From positions 2,539,013 to 2,603,012 of the forward strand of contig OY811981.1 in NCBI GenBank assembly GCA_963681505.1: 64,000 nt of DNA, in the 5' to 3' direction. The stretch comes from Eunapius fragilis (lineage: Eukaryota; Porifera; Demospongiae; Spongillida; Spongillidae). Below, in pieces: positions 22,676-50,500 of this stretch. The notes beneath the pieces were generated by a model that saw only the letters and a program-made list of their open reading frames with translations, ran no database searches and had not been told where the DNA came from. How positions within the stretch are numbered: position 1 is the stretch's first letter; every line of letters starts with the position of its first letter. The position numbers were made by a program, and so were the translations under genes.

Positions 22676-25600
22676 CTGTGTTATGGTTTGTACATATGTA
22701 TGCATCTCATTATTATAATTAGCGTGCATGCGTGTGTGTATATATGGGACAGTGTCCAACAAAATCGGGCTTCTGAGGTTACAATTTTATCCCTATGAAA
22801 ATTGTATGCTAAATAAATCAATATATCTTCGCAACCGCACAACGCTTTCATTTCAAATTTTGTACACATGTTCCAGCATCATTTCCCCCCCCCTCTAATT
22901 AAGCCAATTTTAGTGTTCTAGCTGTTTTCATTGCCGTGAGTACAAAGTTCGCACAGAGAAAAAAAACAATTATTGATTCACAATTGATTTGACAGTAAAA
23001 TCAAGTGCATTTGATTTTACTGTGAAATCATGCATTGATTTAACAACAAAAATCCATTGGGAAATCAATAATTGATTTGAGGCATTTTTTCACTGTCATC
23101 GGGTTAGAATTCCGCGTCAAATTCGGTATATTTATAGAGGAGTCTTGTAGCTATTTAATAGTCCAGAACGTTGACTCGAATGTTATCCATTACGTAGATA
23201 TTGCTGTTCCGCTCGATTCGTGTCAAACAAACCACGTCCCATTCAATGTATGGTAGGCGGGTGCCTACATCATTGGCGTGAATCGAGCGGGAAAATGTTC
23301 ACTTACTTTACACAGCTCTTAACACCGGTTCCGTGTAAATCGAAGGTATTTTTTGTCTAACGTGGTTTTTAGAAAAATTAGTCGGAAAACGTTGCATACG
23401 TAGTAAAATACATATTCGGATAGCCCAACTCTTTTTACGACGGCTGGTTCTATTCTTAGCTCCATATCATGAACGGTAACGTACTTGTATTAATTTAAAG
23501 TTACGCGGTCGTCCGTTTTTCGATGTCCGAATGCTAAGAAGTACACTTTTTTCTGGAGTAGTTCTAAACAAATTTTAAGCTGTCATTAGATTCTTTTAGG
23601 TACCCAATAGAATACATATCAGTTAAAATGTTCACAACCTACGTGGTTCTCGCAAACCAGTTCAGTTTGCTACTCTTTATCTCGTGCCCAGACTCGATTC
23701 AATCATCACAAATTATAATAATTAAAATTTGTCACATCATCCATAGCTAGCTCGAATATGTCTCTCGCGTGTTCTTCGAAGCACAAAAAGCCGGTTTGCG
23801 ATAAGTGCACTGCAGGAACAAACTGCACGAAATGCTGCATGTGCCAACCCCGTTCGCGCGGTCGCGGTCGACCGAGAAAGGAGGATAGCGTTTCATCCGA
23901 TTGTGAATCTGTTCAAACCCCTCTTCGGTCTAACCCAGAACGCCGAGCTCGGATCCATCCCGATGCACTAGCGCCTGCAAGTGCTGCCGATGATGTGACG
24001 CCTTCTACGACTACGTTCGTATCAGACGATCACTCGCAGCATGTGTCTGGATCGCAAGCGCAGATTTTGAAGGTATTGGAGGTAATGAATTGTGAGGACG
24101 GATACGAAAGCAGCGTGCGAAGGCTTCCTAACATTGATGTCCGTCGTCGTGTGCAGCATGAAAATGATCTTGGTGCTGCTACCATCCAACGCATTGATAT
24201 TGTGTTTCGTAAAGGCATCAAGGCCTGGGCACGCATGCTGCTGCCACATATGAAAGCGATAGATGGCATCAGTTTCAAGAATTCATTCAGCATTACATCG
24301 CTTCTAGCCCCCATGGCAGAGACCACCCAGGATGAGGAGGGCAGTGAAGTGCATCTCTCATCTGTTCCTTCTGCCTCCATCCCTACCCAAGTGCTTGATA
24401 CCATACCTGACACCATCAGAGATATGCTGAAGTGTAAAAAGCCTTATACCTCCATTGATGCAAGGACACTTCTTGTCACTCTGGCTGATGTGCCCCAGGC
24501 TTACATTGCATCATTGCTCACCATCAGCAACAAATATGCAGGATCTTTACATTTCCAAGCCAAGGTGGACAAGCTATACATAACAAAAGGTGTTACACTT
24601 CAAGAATACAGGCACTCCCGTTCTCGTGTCAATAGTGCAATGGTCAACCTTGCAGTGGAATTCATTTATGATGATGACAACATCAGTCGGCTTGCCTGGG
24701 AAGCTAAAAAACGCGCTCCAAACAGGGATCTTAGGTGGAAAGGCCTAGCAAACATGTTTGCAATGAGATCCCTAGTTTTAAAACATGACGTCGCAACCAT
24801 GTACAGGCACTATGTTGATAAACAGAGGTCTGTGATGCCAGGTATGCCACCTATAGGGAAGACTCTCTTTTACACCATTGCGAACAACATCACAGGTGGT
24901 GGAAAGTTGCAAGAGGCGCGGGCAGGGGTGGACTACCTGAAAGTCAATTTTCACTCTGAAAATTTTACCATCATCGACAAGGTCATTGATGTTCTAGCAC
25001 CCCTGTCTGATATTGACCACACCCTGCGGGATGAGTTGCTCTGCCTCCGTTCTGACGTGTTTACATTCCTCAGCTACGGCTTTGCAGTACATGTGAAGAG
25101 TGGAGTGCAGGCACCCGACGACACTGTAGTGCAAAGCCGTGAGCCCCAAGAGCATGAAGCACACCAGTTTGCTGAATATAAAAAGCTGGGGGAGCTTCTT
25201 TCACAACCAGATTTGTTTGATGAGCCAGCTACACAGGAATCCTTTATCTTTCAGGTGCATAATCAGCTCAATATGTGTGCAAGTATTGGGGGATTTGTGG
25301 CAGAGCTGGGTGTGAACAATGGCTGTGCATCTACTCACTCACCCGCATATGCACTAGACTTGGTGCCTGACAGGAGACCAAATATGAACCCCAAGCTTGC
25401 AGGCCACATGGACTGCAGTGCTTGTAGGGGAACATTCTTGTTCTACGACAGGTTGAGACGTGTGGCTTTATCCAAACTGGATCAGGACCCCACAAGGCTG
25501 GCAGAGATAGCTGATATGCTGTTGTCAATCCACCAGTGTGAGCGTCGCACATTCAGGTACATGGCCCATGTGATGCTAGCTGCCCAACAGTCCCACAAGA

Positions 25601-28600
25601 TGAAGCAGGTCATCGCTGAAATGGACTCCAGCACAGCATATGCTGTCTTTGACTTCAAGCAGAAGTTCCTGGCCAAGGGTTTCCGGGAAGGTGGTGACTC
25701 ATACTATGGGAAAAAAGGTATGCTATGGTTTGGAGTGGGTGTATACATCAAGCCAGACTCTCAAAGTGCCAGCTACAGTGAGTCTCCTGACAAACTCCAT
25801 GTGGAAATGGATTTCACTGCTGATGTAATCCGTTTACAGCAAGAAGCAGAGATGGCAGAGAGTGTTTGTGATAGGCAAGACAAACATGTGGATGAGCAAG
25901 AGGATGAGGATGTACAGCTTAAAGATGTACAGGATATGGATGCTATGGGTGAAGACGAACATGATGAAGACGTACATGATGAAGACGTACATGATGAAGA
26001 CGTACATGATGAAGACGTACATGATGAAGACGTACATGATGAAGACATACATGATGAAGACATACATGATGAAGAAGACGTACATGATGAAGACGTACAT
26101 GATGAAGATGTACATGATGAAGACGTACATGATGAAGACGTACATGATGAAGACGTACATGATGAAGACGTACATGATGAAGACATACATGATGAAGAAG
26201 ACGTACATGATGAAGACGTACATGATGAAGACGTACATGATGAAGACGTACATGATGAAGATGAACATGATGAAGAAGACGTACATGATGAAGACGTACA
26301 TGATGAAGATGTACATGATGAAGACGTACATGATGAAGACGTACATGATGAAGACGTACATGATGAAGATGAACATGATGCAGCTGCCATTCATTTCATT
26401 GATTGCATTGTGCAGGGCGAGCAGAGGGCTGATGGGAACATTGTTCTTTCATGTTTGGAAGCAGCATTTCATGCCTTGAGGCAGCGGTTTCCATATGTTT
26501 CCAAAATAATAGTCCAGAGCGACAATGCCAAAAACCTGGCTGGCAAGCAGACTAAGCTGCTCCTGCCATATGTTTGCTCAGCTGCAGGGCTCAAGCTATT
26601 GGCCTATTATCATAATGAGGCCCAGAGTGGTAAAGATGTGTGTGACACTCACTTCTCACACCAGCAGACACAAGTTGATACCTACCTGGTGCAGGGAGAT
26701 GGTGGTAGGAAGGTTTCCACTCCAAAGCAACTTGCAGTGGCTCTAATAACCAACTCTGTAAAAAACACAACTGTGCTACTCGTGAAGCCCGATTTTCATG
26801 CTCCGTGTCGTACAGCTGTGATACCGGCAATACATGGCATATCTGGGTTCTATGCAGCTAATTACATTACTACTGATGGTAATCCAGAAGTCCAATTCTT
26901 TCACAGTCTTGGTCAGAAAGTGCCATCAGTCACAGTTCCGATTCCTTCATGCCATGCCTGCTCACTGAATACCCCTATGGGTTCAGACGGAGTCAACTTC
27001 ACTGGTGTTACTGTTCTATTGAACAGTGATTCAAAAGGAACTTGTGTGCAAGCAAACAAGGATAGAAGTCGATACGCGAGGAAACATAAGGGCATGAGTC
27101 ATCGTGAAGTACAGCGTCTGCAGAAGCGAAGGGATGATGAGGAGGCAATGAATGAGATACAGGCAGCATACCCACAGTGTGCTAATTGTCTCTACCACCT
27201 CAAATCCCAGAAGCTGCTGATGAATCATATGTGTGGTGGAGTGTTCACAGCTAAAGATGTGCTCAGCAAAGCAATGAAGCATGCAGATGAGCTCCTTTCC
27301 AGGATGGACTTTACTCTAGAAGGTGCTATTGATCGGGCCTCAAATATGTTCGATAATGCAATAAATTATGCAACATTCGAGCCAAACTTTTATGCTGGTT
27401 GGGCCCACACCAGAAAGGACATGCAACCAGAGTTGACTTCCAAGGTAATGACCATTATTCATCAGTGCTGGAAAGCTGGGGAGTGTATTGACCAAGGTAA
27501 GGTGAAGATTTCTGTGGATGGTGTGTTTGCCAGGCTGGATGAGCTGCAGTTGCAGAAAGTTATTAGGCTTAGTGAGCTTCCACTTCCAGGGAAGATACGT
27601 GCAGTGTACCAGACCATTGGCAGCAAGGCAGAAGCTCCAAGTGCTGTTGGTAAGCGCAGAAGGCCGCAAACGTATGGTGGACCGACTGGAAGGCAGAAGA
27701 AGGCCAGAATCACATATGGGGAACTCGATTTTGAGAAAAGCCTATCCAAATGGAAGAAGCCTGAATTGGAGGTTTATCTCACCCACCATAAAATGGCTAA
27801 GTCAGGGAACAAGTCAGAACTCCTCAAGCGTGTCTCTGATCACATAGACTCCACTGCAATTGAGCAACAATGAATTTTTATGCTTATGTACATGTAGTTA
27901 GTAATTACTTAACTTGCGCAATTGCAAACGAACAATAATTGTTACATTCATTTACCTAAACATTGTAAAATTTAGGTCTGGGGTCGAGGGTGGTTTCCAG
28001 CTGCGTTTGGTTCCAGCGCTTCCGTGCAATTAGAGGGTCCAAAATCGTGGAACACTATGTATCTAGCTTAGGTAAGAACCACTGAATAGTATTTTGCCTG
28101 TAATAAGGCCCAGGAAAAAAGTGTACTTATTATCGGGAAGGGTCTAACCGTTTAACTTCGAACGAACGGTCAAAAATAGCGAAATGACTTACGAAGCTAG
28201 GGATAACACTAAACGTCGTGAAAAGGTTGGGCCATTACGTTAATACCCGTTTGTGAGGCTTACAATTTGTCCGACAATTTTTTCCAAAAAGTGAGTTCGA
28301 CAAAAATGTGCTAAAATACCTTCGATTTACACGGAACCGGTGTTAATGGATAACATTCAAGTCAACGATCTGTAATTAAATTGTTACAGAGCTCATCTAT
28401 AAATGTACTGACTTTGATGTGCATGGAGATACGCAGAATTCTAACTGGATGGGTTGGTGAACTTGGTATTCACTGCCGTGAAAATATCTACAGCACCAAA
28501 ATCGGTTTGCATAGAGCAAAATGGTGTGGGAACAAGTGTACGAGATTTCAAAAAAGGAAAGCGCTGTAAGGTTGCAAAGATATACAGATTTATGTCACAC

Positions 28601-31600
28601 TTTTTATATAACCCCAGGTGCCCGATTTTGCAGGACACTGTCCCATATCTATATAAAAAATGCTGTGTGTAGGTAAATGTGAAAAAGATTACATAGTTTG
28701 ATCGTTAACAAAAAATGATTTTTAACCTTTTAAATCTACAATCATAGAAAAACAGTTAGACTACTACTGGTATTTTTATTAAATTAACTCACCATGGCAA
28801 GGTGACGTCCAATACATGAACGGTGACCCACACCGAATGGAAAGTACACAAATGGACCAGGTCTACGGGGGGAACCAAACATGTATATCATATAACTATG
28901 TGGTTTATGCATCTCTATAATACCGTGATTTGTCTGCATCAAATCTGGATGGGTCAAATGAGTCAGGATCATTGAATTTTTCAGGATTCCTGCACATCAC
29001 TGTGGTATCAAACTGAAAAACTATATGGAAACACACACGGGTATTTTTTTGAAGCTCCAGCTCACAACCATGGTGGTGCCCTCAGGGATATGGTAGCCAC
29101 TCAGTGTAAGTCCTCCTTTGGGAGACTCCTTGAGAATACTGGGCACGGGAGGGTACATCCTCAGTACTTCTTGAACCACCTAAATGTGACAACAGGTGAT
29201 GTATTAATAGAAGGCATCACGTGGTATAGTGACATGTTCTGATTACCTGTTCTGTGTACTTCATCTTGTCCAGGTCATCGCCTGTGACTTCCTTCCTGTT
29301 TTCAAGGACATCTTCTATCTCTGAGAGAAGCCTGAAGTTATGAAAATGTTAGGTTTAGGTCAAAAATTAGAATAAAATACCATTGACATGGAAAGTTATA
29401 AAATACATAATCAATCAATCTAAAGACACACCAAACAGCCAGCAAACAGAAGTATCTTAACAACATGTTAAACCCATCTTTCCATCACTAAATATGAACA
29501 TCAGTACCCGCACACCTATCAAGCACTTCAGGATGCTGATGAATAAGGATGATTGCAAATGATAATGTGTTTGCTGTGGTCTCCTGACCTAAGGGTTGGA
29601 TTGCAAGACTTAATCATGGCCATAACAAGGTCCACTATATTATACCTGCTACATAGAATGTGACAAAGTCATCCACCAAAGTCTCCATGTCAACATCTTT
29701 TTCAGCAACTGGATGGAGGGATGAGTCGGCATGTGTGGTAAATGATCACAATGACCACACCCACTGCTGATTTGGAGTATCTGTGTGAGGATGTCATTGG
29801 GAACCTCCTCCCCACTAGTCACAGCCTTGATCCTCTTCTCAATACAGTCCCGACCAATCTTCCTCATAGCGGCCACTGCTTCATGGTACATTGCTGTCTC
29901 ACGTGGGCGCAACAACTGTGTTGTGTACAAGAACAATGGCATCAATTTGACATCCAAACGCATAATGACATCATTGTACCGGAAATAGTGCAGGTATGGG
30001 GAACATAAATGATTGCTGAACTCCTTTAAAGCTGACGGAAGCGAGGTGGCTCAACTTGGAGTTTGTTGTATACTTCAGTCCAAGGCTCTTACTGTCCCAT
30101 GTCTTACTGAAGTCTGTAGAGAAGGCAACCTGAGGGGAAAACATTGTAATTAAATTTAAAAAATATATATGTATGATCTTTATTGAGCACTGAAGGATAT
30201 TTCGTAATAAGCGCCTCCATGTGTTTACGGTGCCTCCTCCATCGTGCACATACTAGTGGTGTACATATTTAATCCCTCCACCCATTTCATTGACGTATCC
30301 AGAGGGGGTGCTCCGGGTGCTTGAGCACCCCCTCTGCCAAAATTGTAACCGTTAATTATTATCGATAATGTATTTATGCCAAACAAAGGCCCCCCCCCCC
30401 CCCCCACTTTTCGTATCAGGCCTGAAGCGGACAGCAACCCCCCCCCCCCCCCCCCCCCCCCCCCACTTTTCGTATCGGGCCTGACCTGAAGCACCCCCTC
30501 GCTGAAATCCTGGACTGCCTTCTCCACACACCCTTACCTCCACTTCTTCTCCACACCCTTCCCTCCACCCCTTCCCCCTTTTCTCTACTTGCTTCTCTAC
30601 ACCCCTTCCCCCTTCCCCCAATTCCCTTCCCCACATCCCTTCCCTCCAACCTTTCCCCATACCCCTTTTCCACACCCTTCTCCACACCCATTTCCCACCC
30701 ATTCCTTACCCACTTCACTTTACCCCTCCCACACCCTTCCCCACACCCCTTTTCTCTACCCCTTCCCCATCCACCCAGGGCTTCCCCATAACACCAAAAT
30801 TCAATCAGTGCTTCCATTTCTCAACCACATCAGACGGAGCTGAATATTTTGGCGTGAGGCTTGAACTTAATTATGTACGAATTTAAATGGAAAACTGTGG
30901 TACCTTGCTAATGACATCCAAAGAAACTTCATGAAATGCCTCTTTCATGGATACTTCTGTCTTCCCATCAGCAAGGGGCTTCAACCTCTCCAGAAAGGTA
31001 TTGACACACTCATTGAACACAGGAAGAAGATCCTTCAGTGAACTATAAATGGGACGTTTACGGCAATATCACAATTGCGATTCCACGCTAAGCGTATACA
31101 AGCTTCTGCACATCTATCTCAAATTTCATCCAAACTTATTTAATGGCTAGGGGTCATGAGATATTATTACATACAAAAGGTCACCTTCTAGATTTCAGTC
31201 ATTGTGAGGATGTTATTAAATAAAAGCTCCTTCATGATGTTATTATGTCTGCTAAAAGTTAGTTTATTAAGCGTCTGTGGGGAAAATAATATGTTTTAAA
31301 AATCATAGATTACAATTGCTTTGTCACACCAAATTTTACTAAAATCACAAATGGAGTTTCATATGCAGAGTCAAAATTAAGAGGTTGGTAGACACTGAAG
31401 TCAGGATGTGAACATACTGATTCCAGCATGGCAACCCTGCCTCCAACTTAACCACAGGGGTTTATGTTTTGATTACCTTATCAAAACATCTCACAGCTTC
31501 GATGCAAATATCAATGCATGCACTGTGGTATAATGCTGTGTAATGATTGTGTACCAGCTACGGTTTTGGCTATCGAGAACCTTTCTTGCAACCAAGTTTC

Positions 31601-42624: not shown

Positions 42625-42835
42625 ACTATTGCCTGTTATTTGCTGTGTTCATTAACACATCCAGCATTGTTCATTGCAACTGTAGAAATGGGGTCATTTA
42701 ACCCCGTTATTAACCAGAAAAAATCCTCCTCCCCTTGTCACAAAGGCAACTGCAATGTTGCAATTGTGATCCTAACCTGTGCTTATGTTGTATTATGGAC
42801 TGGTGTCTTCAATCCCAATAGCTAACCGAAATGTC

Positions 42836-45800
42836 ATGGTCCAAAAAACTCGGCAGATGTTGGATGGGACTAAACATGAAAAAACCAAAAGTACTGAGAT
42901 AAAGAAGGTTTCAAAACAAAAATGCTCCAAGGCCACAGCCAAGAAAGATACAGATGGCGCGGTCAAGACAAGTACTGCAACTCAGAAATCTGGCAGTGCT
43001 GTAGCGAAGAAAAATACTGCAGCCAAGGAAGTTACTGCACCCAAGAAAGATGCTGCACCCATGAAAGTTACTACAGCCAAGAAAAGTACAGCAACCAAGA
43101 AAGATATCATGAAAAGTACAGCCAAAAAAGATATCGCGAAAAGTAAAACAGCCAAGAAAGATATCACACCCAAAAAACTAACTATAGCCAAGAAAGATAC
43201 TGAAACCAAGACAAGCACTGCAGCTGAGAAAGGTAAGAAAGTTACTGCACCGAAGAAATATGACGCACCCATGAAAGGTACTACAACCAAGAAAGGTACA
43301 GCAGCCAAGGAAGTTACTACAACCAATAAAACTGCAGCAGCCAAAAAGGATATTGCAGAGAAAGTTACTACTGCTAGGAAAAGTACAACCAAGAAAGATG
43401 CTGCACCCAAGAAAGTTACTACAGCCAAGAAAACTGCAACAGCCAAGAAAGATACCAAGACAAGCACTGCAGCTGAGAAAGTCATTGCAGCCAAGAAAGA
43501 TACAGCAGCCAAGAAAGATACTTCAGAGAAAGTTACTACTGCTAAGAAAAGTACAACCAAGAAAGATGCTGCACCCAAGAAAGATGCTGCACCAAAGATA
43601 GATGCTGCACCCAAGAAAGATGCGGCACCCAAGAAAGATGCGGCACCCAAGAAAGATGCTGCACCCAAGAAAGATGCGGCACCCAAGAAAGATGCTGTAC
43701 CCAAGAAAGATGCTGCACCAAAGAAAGATGCTGCACCAAAGAAAGATGCTGCACCAAAGAAAGATGCTGCACCCAAGAAAGATGCTGCACCCAAGAAAGA
43801 TGTGGCACCCAAGAAAGATGCTGCACCCAAGAAAGATGCTGCACCCAAGAAAGATGCTGCACCAAAGAAAGATGCGGCACCCAAGAAAGATGCTGCACCC
43901 AAGAAAGATGCTGCACCCAAGAAAGATGCTGCACCCAAGAAAGATGCTGCACCCAAAAAAGTTACTATAGGAAAGAAATGTACAGCCAAGAAAAATACTG
44001 TAGCCAAGGCAAGCACTGCAGCCGAGGAAGATACTGTAGTTAAAAAAAAAAAAACCAATGCCAGGACTGGTATTGCAGTCATAGGTACTGTGGCAATTAT
44101 GACAGGTAATGAGGCTAAAACACAAATAGTGAATAACCATGCAGCTTCAAGTGATGCTAAATCAGTTGCACAGAAAGGTAAAAAGATCATGGTTGTCACA
44201 ACAGATCTGGTTATTTCAAGACAGAAAAAAAAGAAAAGTAATACAATTGTCAAGTCGCCAGGTAAAATGTTAGTTAGAGGAACACACAAAGAAAAAATGG
44301 ATAATAAACAAGATGAGGAAGAAGTTGAGGAAGATGGAGAGGGAGATGAAGAAGTAGAAGGAGAAGATGGAGAAGATGGAGAAGAAGATAGAGAAGACCA
44401 AGATGAAGAAGTAGAAGGAGAAGATGGAGAAGACCAAGATGAAGAAGAAGATAGAGAACACCAAGATGAAGAAGGAGATGGAGAAGATGGAGAAGACCAA
44501 GATGAAGAAGAAGATAGAGAAGACCAAGATGAAGAAGGAGATGGAGAAGATGGAGAAGACCAAGATGAAGAAGAAGATGGGGAAGATGGAGAAGACCAAG
44601 ATGAAGAAGAAGATGGAGAAGATGGAGAAGACCAAGATGAAGAAGAAGATCGAGGAGACCAAGATGAAGAAGAAGATGGAGAAGATGGAGAAGACCAAGA
44701 TGAAGAAGAAGATCGAGGAGACCAAGATGAAGAAGAAGATGGAGAAGATGGAGAAGATGCAGAAGATGGAGCAGAAGATGAAGTAAAAGAAGATGGACAA
44801 ATAGGGGAAGATGGACAAGATGGGGAAGATGGAAAAGAAGGAGAAGATGGACAGGATGGGAATGATGGAGAAGATGTTGAAGAAGGAGGAGAAGATGGAG
44901 AAGTTGTTGAAGAAGGAGAAGGTGCAGAAGATGGAGAAGATGGACAGGATGGACTTGAAGAAGGAGAAAATAGACAGGATGGAGAAGATGGACAGGATGG
45001 AGAAGATGGACAGGATGGAGAAGATGGACAGGATAGAGAAGATGGACAGGATGGAGAAGATGGACAGGATGGAGAAGATGGACAGGATGGAGAAGATGGA
45101 CAGGATGGAGAAGATGGACAGGATGGAGAAGATGGACAGGATGGAGAAGATGGACAGGATGGAGAAGATGGACAGGATGGAGAAGATGGACAGGATGGAG
45201 AAGATCTACAGGATGGACAGGATGGAGAAGATGGACAGGATGGAGAGGATGGACAAGGTGGAGAAGATGGAGAAGAAGATGAAGGAGGAGATGGAGAAGA
45301 TGGACAGGATGGAGAAGGTGGAGAAGATGATGAAGGAGAAGGAGATGACGGAGAAGATGGAGGAGAAGATGGAGGAGATGTAGAAGATGGAGGAGGAGAA
45401 GATGGGGAAGATGGAGAAGGAGAAGATGGAGAAGGAGAAAATGGAGGAGAAGATGGACAAGATGGAGAAGATGGACAAGATGGAGAAGATGGACAAGATG
45501 GAGAAGATGATGGAGGAGGAGATGATGGAGAAGATGGAGTAGAAGATGGAGAAGATGAAGAAGGAGAAGATGGAGGAGAAGGAGAAGATGGGGAAAGAGA
45601 AGTTGGAGGAGGAGATGGAGGAGAAGGAGAAGATGGGGAAAGAGAAGTTGGAGGAGATGGAGGAGGAGAAGATGGGGAAAGAGAAGTTGGAGGAGGAGAT
45701 GGAGAAGGAGAAGATGGAGGAGAAGATGGAGGAGGAGAAGATGTAGGAGAATATGGAGAAGATGTAGGAGAATATGGAGAAGATGTAGGAGAATATGGAG

Positions 45801-45910
45801 AAGATGTAGGAAAATATGGAGAAGATGTAGGCGAATATGGAGAAGATGGTGGAGGAGAAGGTGGAGAAGGAGATGGAGAAAATAGAGATGATGGAGATGG
45901 AGATGATTAG
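42836..45910 (+). CDS. Long two-block repeat protein: Lys/Ala/Pro-rich then acidic Gly/Glu/Asp-rich
   Basis: Uninterrupted frame to TAG 45910. I prefer ATG 42836 (MVQKTRQMLDG, about 1024 aa); ATG 42785 is an in-frame alternative. Residues about 15-380 are strongly basic, with KKD/KKVT-type units (TTAKKSTAKKD) that turn into about 22 exact KKDAAP repeats (43559-43960). A short mixed linker follows, containing the only hydrophobic stretch (TGIAVIGTVAIMTGN) and KKKKSN. From about residue 485 to the end the chain is acidic: DEEEDGEDGEDQ units, about a dozen DGQDGE repeats, then GEDGGE and EYGEDVG repeats. No known domain. The basic half resembles linker-histone-like tails and the acidic half resembles acidic chaperone or matrix proteins, but neither is an assignment. 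No intron was needed. The very long open frame with period-3 units supports translation; expression is unproven. Confidence 0.65.
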   Translation: MVQKTRQMLDGTKHEKTKSTEIKKVSKQKCSKATAKKDTDGAVKTSTATQKSGSAVAKKNTAAKEVTAPKKDAAPMKVTTAKKSTATKKDIMKSTAKKDIAKSKTAKKDITPKKLTIAKKDTETKTSTAAEKGKKVTAPKKYDAPMKGTTTKKGTAAKEVTTTNKTAAAKKDIAEKVTTARKSTTKKDAAPKKVTTAKKTATAKKDTKTSTAAEKVIAAKKDTAAKKDTSEKVTTAKKSTTKKDAAPKKDAAPKIDAAPKKDAAPKKDAAPKKDAAPKKDAAPKKDAVPKKDAAPKKDAAPKKDAAPKKDAAPKKDAAPKKDVAPKKDAAPKKDAAPKKDAAPKKDAAPKKDAAPKKDAAPKKDAAPKKDAAPKKVTIGKKCTAKKNTVAKASTAAEEDTVVKKKKTNARTGIAVIGTVAIMTGNEAKTQIVNNHAASSDAKSVAQKGKKIMVVTTDLVISRQKKKKSNTIVKSPGKMLVRGTHKEKMDNKQDEEEVEEDGEGDEEVEGEDGEDGEEDREDQDEEVEGEDGEDQDEEEDREHQDEEGDGEDGEDQDEEEDREDQDEEGDGEDGEDQDEEEDGEDGEDQDEEEDGEDGEDQDEEEDRGDQDEEEDGEDGEDQDEEEDRGDQDEEEDGEDGEDAEDGAEDEVKEDGQIGEDGQDGEDGKEGEDGQDGNDGEDVEEGGEDGEVVEEGEGAEDGEDGQDGLEEGENRQDGEDGQDGEDGQDGEDGQDREDGQDGEDGQDGEDGQDGEDGQDGEDGQDGEDGQDGEDGQDGEDGQDGEDGQDGEDLQDGQDGEDGQDGEDGQGGEDGEEDEGGDGEDGQDGEGGEDDEGEGDDGEDGGEDGGDVEDGGGEDGEDGEGEDGEGENGGEDGQDGEDGQDGEDGQDGEDDGGGDDGEDGVEDGEDEEGEDGGEGEDGEREVGGGDGGEGEDGEREVGGDGGGEDGEREVGGGDGEGEDGGEDGGGEDVGEYGEDVGEYGEDVGEYGEDVGKYGEDVGEYGEDGGGEGGEGDGENRDDGDGDD
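43559..43960 (+). repeat. 18-bp coding repeat (KKDAAP)n
   Basis: About 22 copies of AAGAAAGATGCTGCACCC with a few synonymous or single-residue changes. Frame-preserving length. Confidence 0.95.
44972..45220 (+). repeat. 18-bp coding repeat (DGQDGE)n
   Basis: About 13 copies of GATGGACAGGATGGAGAA inside a wider GA-rich acidic region (44310-45905) with other period-3 units. Confidence 0.93.
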
Positions 45911-47587: not shown

Positions 47588-50500
47588 TCAGCGAACAATT
47601 TCCTGAAGAGCGCAAGGTACAGCACCCCTTGGTTGCTGTGTAGCAAGCTGTTCCACCACCAGCTCGAATGAAGGAGACAGTGTTAGCTTGAAGGTTTGCA
47701 GTAGTCGTGTGAGGATAAGTTTGGCCTCAATCTGTGATGATCATGGTCACACATGCAGGAGATATTTGCTGCTACAATACAAGGCTTATATTCTTAACCT
47801 TACAATAGCAAAGTGACGTCCTATACATGAACGATGACCAACACTGAATGGGAAGTATACAAATGGACCTGGTCTGAGGGGTAAGACAGCACACCTTATT
47901 GCATACATTCTACAGGTGTAAAAATGTGCTTTGTACCGTGGCTTGCCTTCATCAAACCGAGATGGGTCAAACACGTTAGGATCATTGAAGTACTCAGGAT
48001 TTCTGCACATGATTGAGGTAATAAACTGGCAACAGAAACAATCATAAAACACATGCGCACCACAAGGTTTGAATCTCCACTCACAGTCATGAGAGTACCC
48101 TCCGGAATATGGTAAGTACTCAGTGTTATTCCTCCTTTGGGAGACTCTTTGTTCATAAAAGCTACTGTAGGGTACATCCGTAATACCTCTTGAATCACCT
48201 GAATATACAAGTCACTGTGAGGAGACAAAGAAGTGGCAAAATGGTTCAGTACCTGTTCTGTGTACTTCATCTTGTCCAAGTCATCTCCTGTGACTTCCTT
48301 TCTCTCTCCTAGGACGTCATCTATCTCTGAGAGAAGCCTGGAAATACACAAAACTCAATAACAAGTATCATTCTAGTACAACCCCTGATAAGTATCCACT
48401 TGGAGCACGCTGTATGAGCACCATGTTAATTTGATGGCAGAACATCTCCTGTATTAGAACTTACATGATTGTTACTATTTATATATATATATATATATAT
48501 ATGGGGTCGTGGCAGCGAAAAGGGACCTAGCGCATATTATAAAAATTTTCCAGGAAGTAACTTCTAACAAGATGCGTGCAATTAAAATGTATGTGTAATT
48601 ACAAATTCAGGCCACTGTAACTCCGCGATGGACAGACCATTGTCCAGTGCGTAAGAAAGAAGTTGTGGAGGGCATAGATGTCTCTTAGAAAATGAAAACA
48701 TGCGCTATGTCCCTTTTCGCTGCACGATCCCATATTATAATATAATGGGATCAAGGGGACAATGCTTGCATTTCATGATATTCACCTACAACTTCCTTCT
48801 TTTAAATGATGAGATCATTGCAGTAAATAACATCATTTTTTAGACATCACTAGAATGCTCCTCATTCTCCATTTAACTAGCTCAGAAGTGATCGGAATTG
48901 GAAGGATCTCTAGCACTGAGCTCAGTTAAATTCTCCAGCAAGGTTCTATTTAATTACAATGGAAGTGGCAACTGTGGTAGCTTTGTAAACTGCACCCCAA
49001 GGAGATGCAGAAGTTCTACCACTGTATAATTAATTGCATTGCATACATTACAGGATCCCCACACACCTATCAAGCACTTCAGGATGCTGATGAATAAGGA
49101 TGATTGCAAATGATAATGTGTTTGCTGTGGTTTCCTGACCTGAGGGTTGGATCACATGATCTAAGTGCTGCTGCAAAAAGGTGCTACCTACCTGCTATAT
49201 AAAATGTGACAAAGTCATCCACCAAAGTCTCCATGTCAACACTTTTTTCAGCAACTGGATGGAGAGATGGGTTGACATTATGGTAAATGATCACAATGAC
49301 CACACCCACTGCTGATTTGGAGTATCTGTGTGAGGATGTCATTGGGAACTTCCTCCCCACTAGTCACAGCCTTGATCCTCTTCTCAATACAGTCCCGACC
49401 AATCTTCCTCATAGCGGCCACTGCTTCATGGTACATTGCAGTCTCATGTGGGTGTAACAACTGCAGTGTGCAGAACAGAAACAGAAAAGATTAGAATGTT
49501 ACACTATAGAAGCAATTTACCGGAAAGAATGTTGGGAAAAGAGTTATGAATGATTGCTGAACTCCTTTAAAGCTGACAGAAGCAAGGTGGCTCAACTTGG
49601 AGTTTGTTGTATACTTCAGTCCAAGGCTTTTACTGTCCCATGTCTTACTGAAGTCTGTAGAGAAGGCAACCTTGAGGGATGAACCATTGCAGTAATGCAA
49701 CTAAAATGAATATTTCGTATAATGAAAACAAAAGCTACAATATTGATTATTTAAATTACGCAAGTAATGTCATTAAAATTATAACTGAAGCTGATTTAAA
49801 ATTTTCAAAAGTGAGGTGTCCTGGTTGGAATTACCTTAGTACAGATTGTAAGTGAATCATTATACAATAAAGGAGATTCTGCAGAGACATTCCCCTTCAA
49901 CACTTGTTATGACTTAGTACCTTGCTAATGACATCCAAAGAAACGTCATGAAATGCCTCTTTCATAGATACTTCTGTCTTCCCATCAGCAAGGGGTTTCA
50001 ACCTCTCCAGAAAGGTATTGACACACTCATTGAACATAGGAAGAAGGTCCTTCAGTGAACTACATTTGAAAGTTGATGTAAAATAGAATAACTGAAAAGA
50101 CATGAACTCCTATTGAAAAGGGCACCTTCGTTTAAATGAGGGGTCATAAAGTTTTCTCCTGGGCTTCCAAGACTCATGGTCCGGAATAGTGACCAAACCA
50201 TGACCCAAAAACCTGAAGTGTGATTTGCAACTTCATTCCTTTGTTCCATTACTAGTGGTTGCTAACCTCTTTCCAAATAACCACTTTAGTTGTTTGTTAT
50301 TGGTGTCAGATTTACCAATGCTTTCATCAGATGCCACTCTCTGTGCTCATCGCATTGTGGGTGGGGGAAAAGACAAATCATGCATGGTACACACAATGAA
50401 GTTCCAAGGAAGCAAATTTATTGAAGGACCATTCAAACAGAAACGGTATATCTAGGATTTGAACTGTCACCAGAGGCACCCACCATTATAATTTCCACAT

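Follow-up and report, generated by a model that had tools for sequence, protein, structure and literature searches.

Two nested transposons occupy positions 22746-28644 of the 64,000-nt stretch of DNA analyzed here (the window), which derives from contig OY811981.1 of the sponge Eunapius fragilis (GCA_963681505.1; a genome of 219 Mb in 24 contigs): a young element bearing a transposase-like open reading frame (ORF), and an unrelated, gene-less element within which it lies. The inner one is very probably a TTAA-specific cut-and-paste DNA transposon (23323-28342) that jumped into an older element with GGGACAGTGTCC ends. The features of the locus are as follows, the basis of each call being given in brackets where it was recorded.

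22746..28644, no strand: outer element, resembling a miniature inverted-repeat transposable element (MITE), interrupted (ends GGGACAGTGTCC / GGACACTGTCCC; ATAT on both sides)
~22963..23096, no strand: palindromic repeat lying as a third insert in the left outer arm (inverted-repeat list and genome matches)
23319..23322, no strand: left TTAA target-site copy
23323..28342, plus strand: inner autonomous-looking transposon, 5,020 bp (copy comparison)
23323..23352, plus strand: left terminal inverted repeat, CACCGGTTCCGTGTAAATCGAAGGTATTTT
23758..27873, plus strand: transposase-like ORF, 1,371 aa, intronless and intact (ORF list; ratio of nonsynonymous to synonymous substitution rates, dN/dS)
23770..23880, plus strand: N-terminal Cys cluster and GRGRPRK AT-hook-like patch, ~aa 5-41 (sequence)
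25399..25758, plus strand: presumed catalytic core, first half, aa 548-667, with FDFKQKF (D632) and YYGKKGM (invariant in three aligned members)
25759..26388, plus strand: acidic insert, ~aa 668-877 (differs in each of the three aligned members)
25950-26380, plus strand: DEDVH-type 15-bp tandem repeat within the acidic insert of the window copy
26389..26937, plus strand: presumed catalytic core, second half, aa 878-1060, with QSDNAKN (D922) and HNEA..GKD.CD.HF (C962, D963, H965) (alignment)
27178..27234, plus strand: C..C...H.C finger, C1141-C1144-H1157-C1159, aa 1141-1159 (alignment)
27376..27417, plus strand: conserved FE.NF..GWAH..K block with E1208, candidate third catalytic acid (alignment)
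27742..27846, plus strand: SAP domain, aa 1329-1363 (Pfam)
28313..28342, minus strand: right terminal inverted repeat, 30/30 complementary
28343..28346, no strand: right TTAA target-site copy

An earlier reading of the letters alone (the sequence-only reading) had taken 22746-28644 for one complete transposon, and most of its components were found again: GGGACAGTGTCC at 22746 with its reverse complement ending at 28644, arms that are diverged yet alignable (self-matches of the joined flanks at 70% and 82%), ATAT on both sides, a single intact intronless ORF of 1,371 codons at 23758-27873, and a Cys cluster, an AT-hook-like GRGRPRK patch, a zinc finger and a SAP domain in its protein. That the locus holds a DNA transposon with a plausible transposase is likewise borne out. 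The joining of these parts into a single element did not hold; the ends, the long arms and the ATAT belong to the outer element, and the ORF element has TTAA and 30-bp repeats of its own. Because the ORF element is nested inside the outer one, the reported GGGACAGTGTCC ends are those of the wrong element, and once the nesting is recognized the ends, the target site and the size all change, and the classification with them.

The boundaries of the inner element and its TTAA target are established by its copies. When 22746-23757 was searched against the genome (best 40 of 623 candidates scored; 41 matches listed, two of them the window's own), the match began at or beyond query position 568 in all 39 non-self places, and in each of the 12 loci read the homology started at TTAACACCGG (window 23319) or a diverged form of it, preceded by flanks that were unrelated by eye except in two C9 copies, which have a common flank. 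The 3' end is ...CCGGTG-TTAA (window 28346) in all four near-identical copies read, followed by other DNA (common to the C9 pair), and is slightly degraded in a fifth, diverged copy. The window element and copies C13, C8, C9a and C9b thus take the form TTAA / CACCGGTTCCG...CGGAACCGGTG / TTAA at four distinct sites, with a 30-bp repeat that shows no mismatch in the window, C13 or C8 and 2-3 mismatches in the C9 pair; both ends were read in five of the six copies at least 96% identical (the sixth, C3, at 96%, being left out) and in a complete relative, L076. Since copies at separate sites begin and stop at TTAA-CACCGG, the inner transposon spans 23323-28342 (5,020 bp). Its perfect 30-bp inverted repeat begins CACCGGTTCCGTG, starting 5'-CACCGG, and it coincides with the only perfect pair among the nine inverted-repeat pairs listed (23319-23352 / 28313-28346, 34/34 complementary), a pair that begins with TTAA and does not lie at the outer ends. 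The element thus has what is expected of a class II cut-and-paste transposon: inverted repeats at its termini and, in flanks that are unrelated, a target duplication that is short and fixed.

The outer element has imperfect inverted-repeat arms of several hundred bp, and no coding capacity was seen in it outside the inner element. Elements of this MITE-like type are very abundant in the genome, and each of their ends is near-palindromic (GGACA-G-TGTCC). The motif GGGACAGTGTCC occurs 1,724 times genome-wide (vs 24 for the same letters reversed), and ATAT directly precedes 23 of the first 30 ends listed (L032-L061, all on contig C1; the two ends of one element count twice). Seven short elements (249-421 bp) had both ends visible, six of them with ATAT on both sides. 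When the two window flanks of the inner element were joined around a single TTAA and used as a query, six of the seven non-self outer loci fetched aligned across the insertion point, at ~70-73% identity over the main pieces, and the match in the seventh was confined to the palindromic repeat; the ORF element was absent from all five relatives inspected at the junction (L068, L070, L072, L073, and L074). The palindromic repeat itself (~134 bp, 22963-23096) also occurs alone, on both strands, at many other genomic places.

The copies also attest to the mobility of the inner element, and to its recency. With up to one mismatch, TTAACACCGGTTCCGTG is found at 209 genomic places (vs 1 for the reversed control), and when the 3'-terminal third of the ORF served as a query (best 40 of 128 candidates scored), 43 matching coding pieces were returned, six of them, including the window's own, at 96-100% identity. 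Copy C13 has no mismatches in 1,939 + 359 bp and is 100% identical over another 1,485 bp (3.8 kb compared, the acidic-repeat region excluded). The family extends to more diverged members: L076 (4,960 bp) is likewise bounded by TTAA-CACCGG, its intact ORF encodes a protein 39% identical to that of the window, and its 3' part is found 100% identical over 1,459 nt at four genomic places, its own among them; L077, a 58% relative, has a frame open across the 1,323 codons fetched, its 5' end lying outside the fetched piece. Many further copies of the ORF family are broken, and in L016, L018, L019 and L021 the 5' end of the element lies only a few hundred bases from the aa 877 codons, as expected of internally deleted, non-autonomous derivatives. 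A different transposon, hAT-like by its sequence, appears to lie inside or beside another ORF-family member (L075:1300-3619).

The encoded protein was compared among three members (window, L076, and L077), which share a series of invariant or nearly invariant blocks: GRP.K, QCERRTFRYM, FDFKQKF, GFREGGD.YYGKKGM, HFIDC, QSDNAKN, HNEA..GKD.CD.HFSHQQ, VSTPKQLA.AL, NTTVLLVKP, C1141..C1144...H1157.C1159 and FE.NF..GWAH..K. D632, D922, D963 and E1208 are invariant in all three; the Cys cluster before GRP.K is present in two of the three, L077 being cut there. SAP is found by Pfam in all three members (best E 6.1e-9), the window protein (P0001) alone falling just under the Pfam cut-off, and a weak C2H2 match below cut-off (E 0.0021) falls at the finger block in L075. 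The ORF family is under purifying selection, with a dN/dS of 0.165 over 1,091 codons between the window and L077 (0.249 for aa 1-547, 0.055 for aa 548-667, 0.065 for aa 878-1060 and 0.180 for aa 1061-1371), values that are rough given a dS above 1; against L076, dS is mostly saturated.

These data leave little room for two other accounts of the locus. A single transposon, in which the GGGACAGTGTCC ends, the several-hundred-bp inverted repeats and the 1,371-codon ORF belong together, would explain that both GGGACAGTGTCC ends flank the ORF in the window and that a second ORF relative (L033/L075) also adjoins a GGGACAGTGTCC end; that relative, however, seen at its 3' end only, has its own ...GCGGTG-TTAA end inside another GGGACAGTGTCC element, the outer relatives pass through the insertion point without the ORF, and the four other near-identical copies are bounded by TTAA-CACCGG, with neither GGGACAG nor its complement in the pieces compared (1.5 kb of flank on the 5' side and 0.3-0.5 kb on the 3' side). 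Because the copies have independent flanks, we regard this account as already refuted, with a negligible residual chance. A domesticated host gene, as opposed to a mobile transposase gene, would be in keeping with purifying selection on the ORF, yet several near-identical copies carry terminal repeats and TTAA in different flanks, which makes domestication extremely improbable. The nested arrangement is instead backed by the boundaries, the 30-bp repeats, the TTAA on both sides, the unrelated flanks, the uninterrupted outer relatives, the near-identical copies, the selection on the ORF and the shorter derivatives with the same ends; the ORF element is real and recently mobile, and its mechanism as a transposon is probably ordinary.

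In our best reading, the ORF would encode a cut-and-paste transposase specific for TTAA, whose RNase-H-like core is interrupted by an acidic insert that varies between members, since the order of its blocks (FD, two strands, insert, helix, a strand ending in SDN, helix, strand, and a conserved helix) appears to fit such a core. For the chemistry, we infer that the N-terminal Cys cluster and AT-hook bind the 30-bp terminal repeats and that the core, with invariant D632 and D922 and a third acid (E1208 or D963), cuts the ends at the TTAA boundary by two-metal chemistry, after which the ends would be joined to another TTAA. The third acid would be E1208 under a Kolobok-like reading and D963 under a DUF7869-like one. 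The SAP domain may aid DNA or chromatin binding, and the acidic stretch, lying between the first catalytic Asp and the second, would be a variable loop.

Several points weigh against this overall picture of a nested transposon with such an enzyme. The junction letters in the five outer relatives are GTAA (three), ATAA (one), and CTAA (one) rather than TTAA, and four of the five have ~7 extra letters immediately left of the junction; the exact pre-insertion TTAA of the window locus is therefore not seen. The protein found no counterpart among the transposase models of Pfam and NCBIfam or the sequences of the PDB: NCBIfam gave one chance-level match only, the PDB gave none by sequence at E up to 1, and by profile it gave 17 chance-level matches (best E 0.28), some of them in the SAP region. 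Single-sequence AlphaFold reached a mean predicted local distance difference test score (pLDDT) of 39.6 for aa 548-1270 and 35.9 for aa 874-1070, which is no usable model and says nothing either way, and two residues, E1208 and D963, compete for the place of the third catalytic acid. Prokaryotic and viral relatives were looked for and none was confirmed. Unannotated animal proteins with similar blocks may exist.

Two family assignments were weighed for the protein. One proposal holds that the inner element is a diverged Kolobok, its residues running D632, D922, CxxH at 962-965, the zinc finger at 1141-1159 and then E1208, all of them invariant in the three aligned members, in an order that does resemble Kolobok; a TTAA target, a C/DxxH motif following the second D and a zinc finger placed after that motif and before the last E are Kolobok traits (PMC9587614). 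The same source gives Kolobok termini as 5'-RR/YY-3' (PMC9587614), against 5'-CA...TG-3' in all six elements read at both ends here. Because the inner element ends in 5'-CA/TG-3', a defining feature of Kolobok is absent from it. The Mutator domain PF20700, which presumably covers Kolobok, had no Pfam match in the window protein, its pieces or the three members, and a profile comparison with two of this genome's four PF20700 matches did no better than chance, 132 of 150 shuffles scoring as high, in a test of little power; Kolobok membership is, on balance, quite unlikely. The second proposal, which relates the core to the transposase-like domain DUF7869 (PF25273) and takes D963 (in D-x-[HY]-F-[SG]) as the third acid, is a possibility, if a rather doubtful one. 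The best profile alignment, obtained with the realignment threshold off, places FDFKQ on FD[FY]CQ, the YY..WFG block on YF..VFG and QSDN on QADN, and PF25273 is matched 90 times in the genome, in several cases within long open frames. The comparison, which drew on 11 of these 90 places, nevertheless gave no match under default settings and no significance (as high a score was reached by 14 of 300 column-shuffled profiles in one test and by 11 of 150 in another); HMMER reached a best E of 0.12 among eight sequences, the same Pfam scans reported no DUF7869 match, and D963 does not fall on the third acid in the profile alignment, that pairing having been made by eye. Mobile-looking PF25273 proteins are abundant in this genome (90 pieces, e.g., L098 and L099), several of them lying in open frames of 690-991 aa and some having identical scores at more than one place.

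Elsewhere in the window, an exon-like frame at 47899-48354 (minus strand) matches cytochrome P450 (PF00067, E 7e-10), and nine other frames scanned alongside it had no Pfam match. A long open frame at 42779-45910 (plus strand) with KKDAAP-type and EDGE/DGQDGE-type repeats resembles low-complexity sequence more than a clear gene. Minisatellites occupy 1-645 and 1692-2332, with a 36-bp unit that keeps the frame open and a 28-bp unit in ~23 copies.

The superfamily of the inner element is left unassigned, and is possibly undescribed, because the Kolobok rule for termini does not hold, the PF20700 comparison is at chance, the similarity to DUF7869 is insufficient and no transposase model matches; the sequence-only reading had likewise been able to name none, and among the transposase families searched we found no match either, SAP being the only clear one. 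None of the matches listed by word searches of open-licence PubMed Central articles deals with such an element in its title or the first lines of its abstract, which is not proof that it is unpublished. Tentatively, the element could represent an undescribed TTAA-specific superfamily, with a transposase of 1,300-1,400 aa, an RNase-H core with a rapidly rebuilt acidic repeat loop, and a terminal zinc finger and SAP domain, a proposal that we hold to be plausible, if short of probable. Were it true, TTAA targeting would have arisen independently once more, in an element that has been active in this genome recently and perhaps still is.

Comparison with known systems places the element among several families with partial likenesses. 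KDZ (Kyakuja-Dileera-Zisupton) elements join zinc-binding and SAP modules to a transposase with an RNase-H-like core, as the inner element may do; the KDZ transposase domain, for which Pfam holds a model, had no match in our Pfam scans; Zisupton target duplications are 8 bp, as against TTAA in the inner element. Sola3, as generally understood, targets TTAA, which it would share with the inner element. In the DUF7869 proteins of the same genome, FD[FY] is followed by strand-like blocks, [AS]DN and D.[HY]F in an order similar to that of the inner element, D.[HY]F being matched by eye only. With Kolobok, the inner element shares TTAA and a C/DxxH-like motif that precedes a zinc finger and a conserved E, and the termini differ. 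TTAA is the target of both piggyBac and Kolobok, and in piggyBac it is also the target-site duplication (PMC9587614). A single large transposase ORF is common to piggyBac and the inner element. The ends of piggyBac begin 5'-CMY, which the CAC of the inner element would fit, and the inner-element protein is about twice the length of the piggyBac transposase. Pfam gave no match to a piggyBac-type domain up to E 10 in the same set of sequences, a search in which HMMER filters can hide weak matches, and piggyBac identity thus does not fit. The usefulness of piggyBac as a seamless vector comes from its TTAA targeting; a TTAA family with open, recently identical copies and an unfamiliar transposase would be a testable new source of enzymes, and would also test how often TTAA targeting has evolved.

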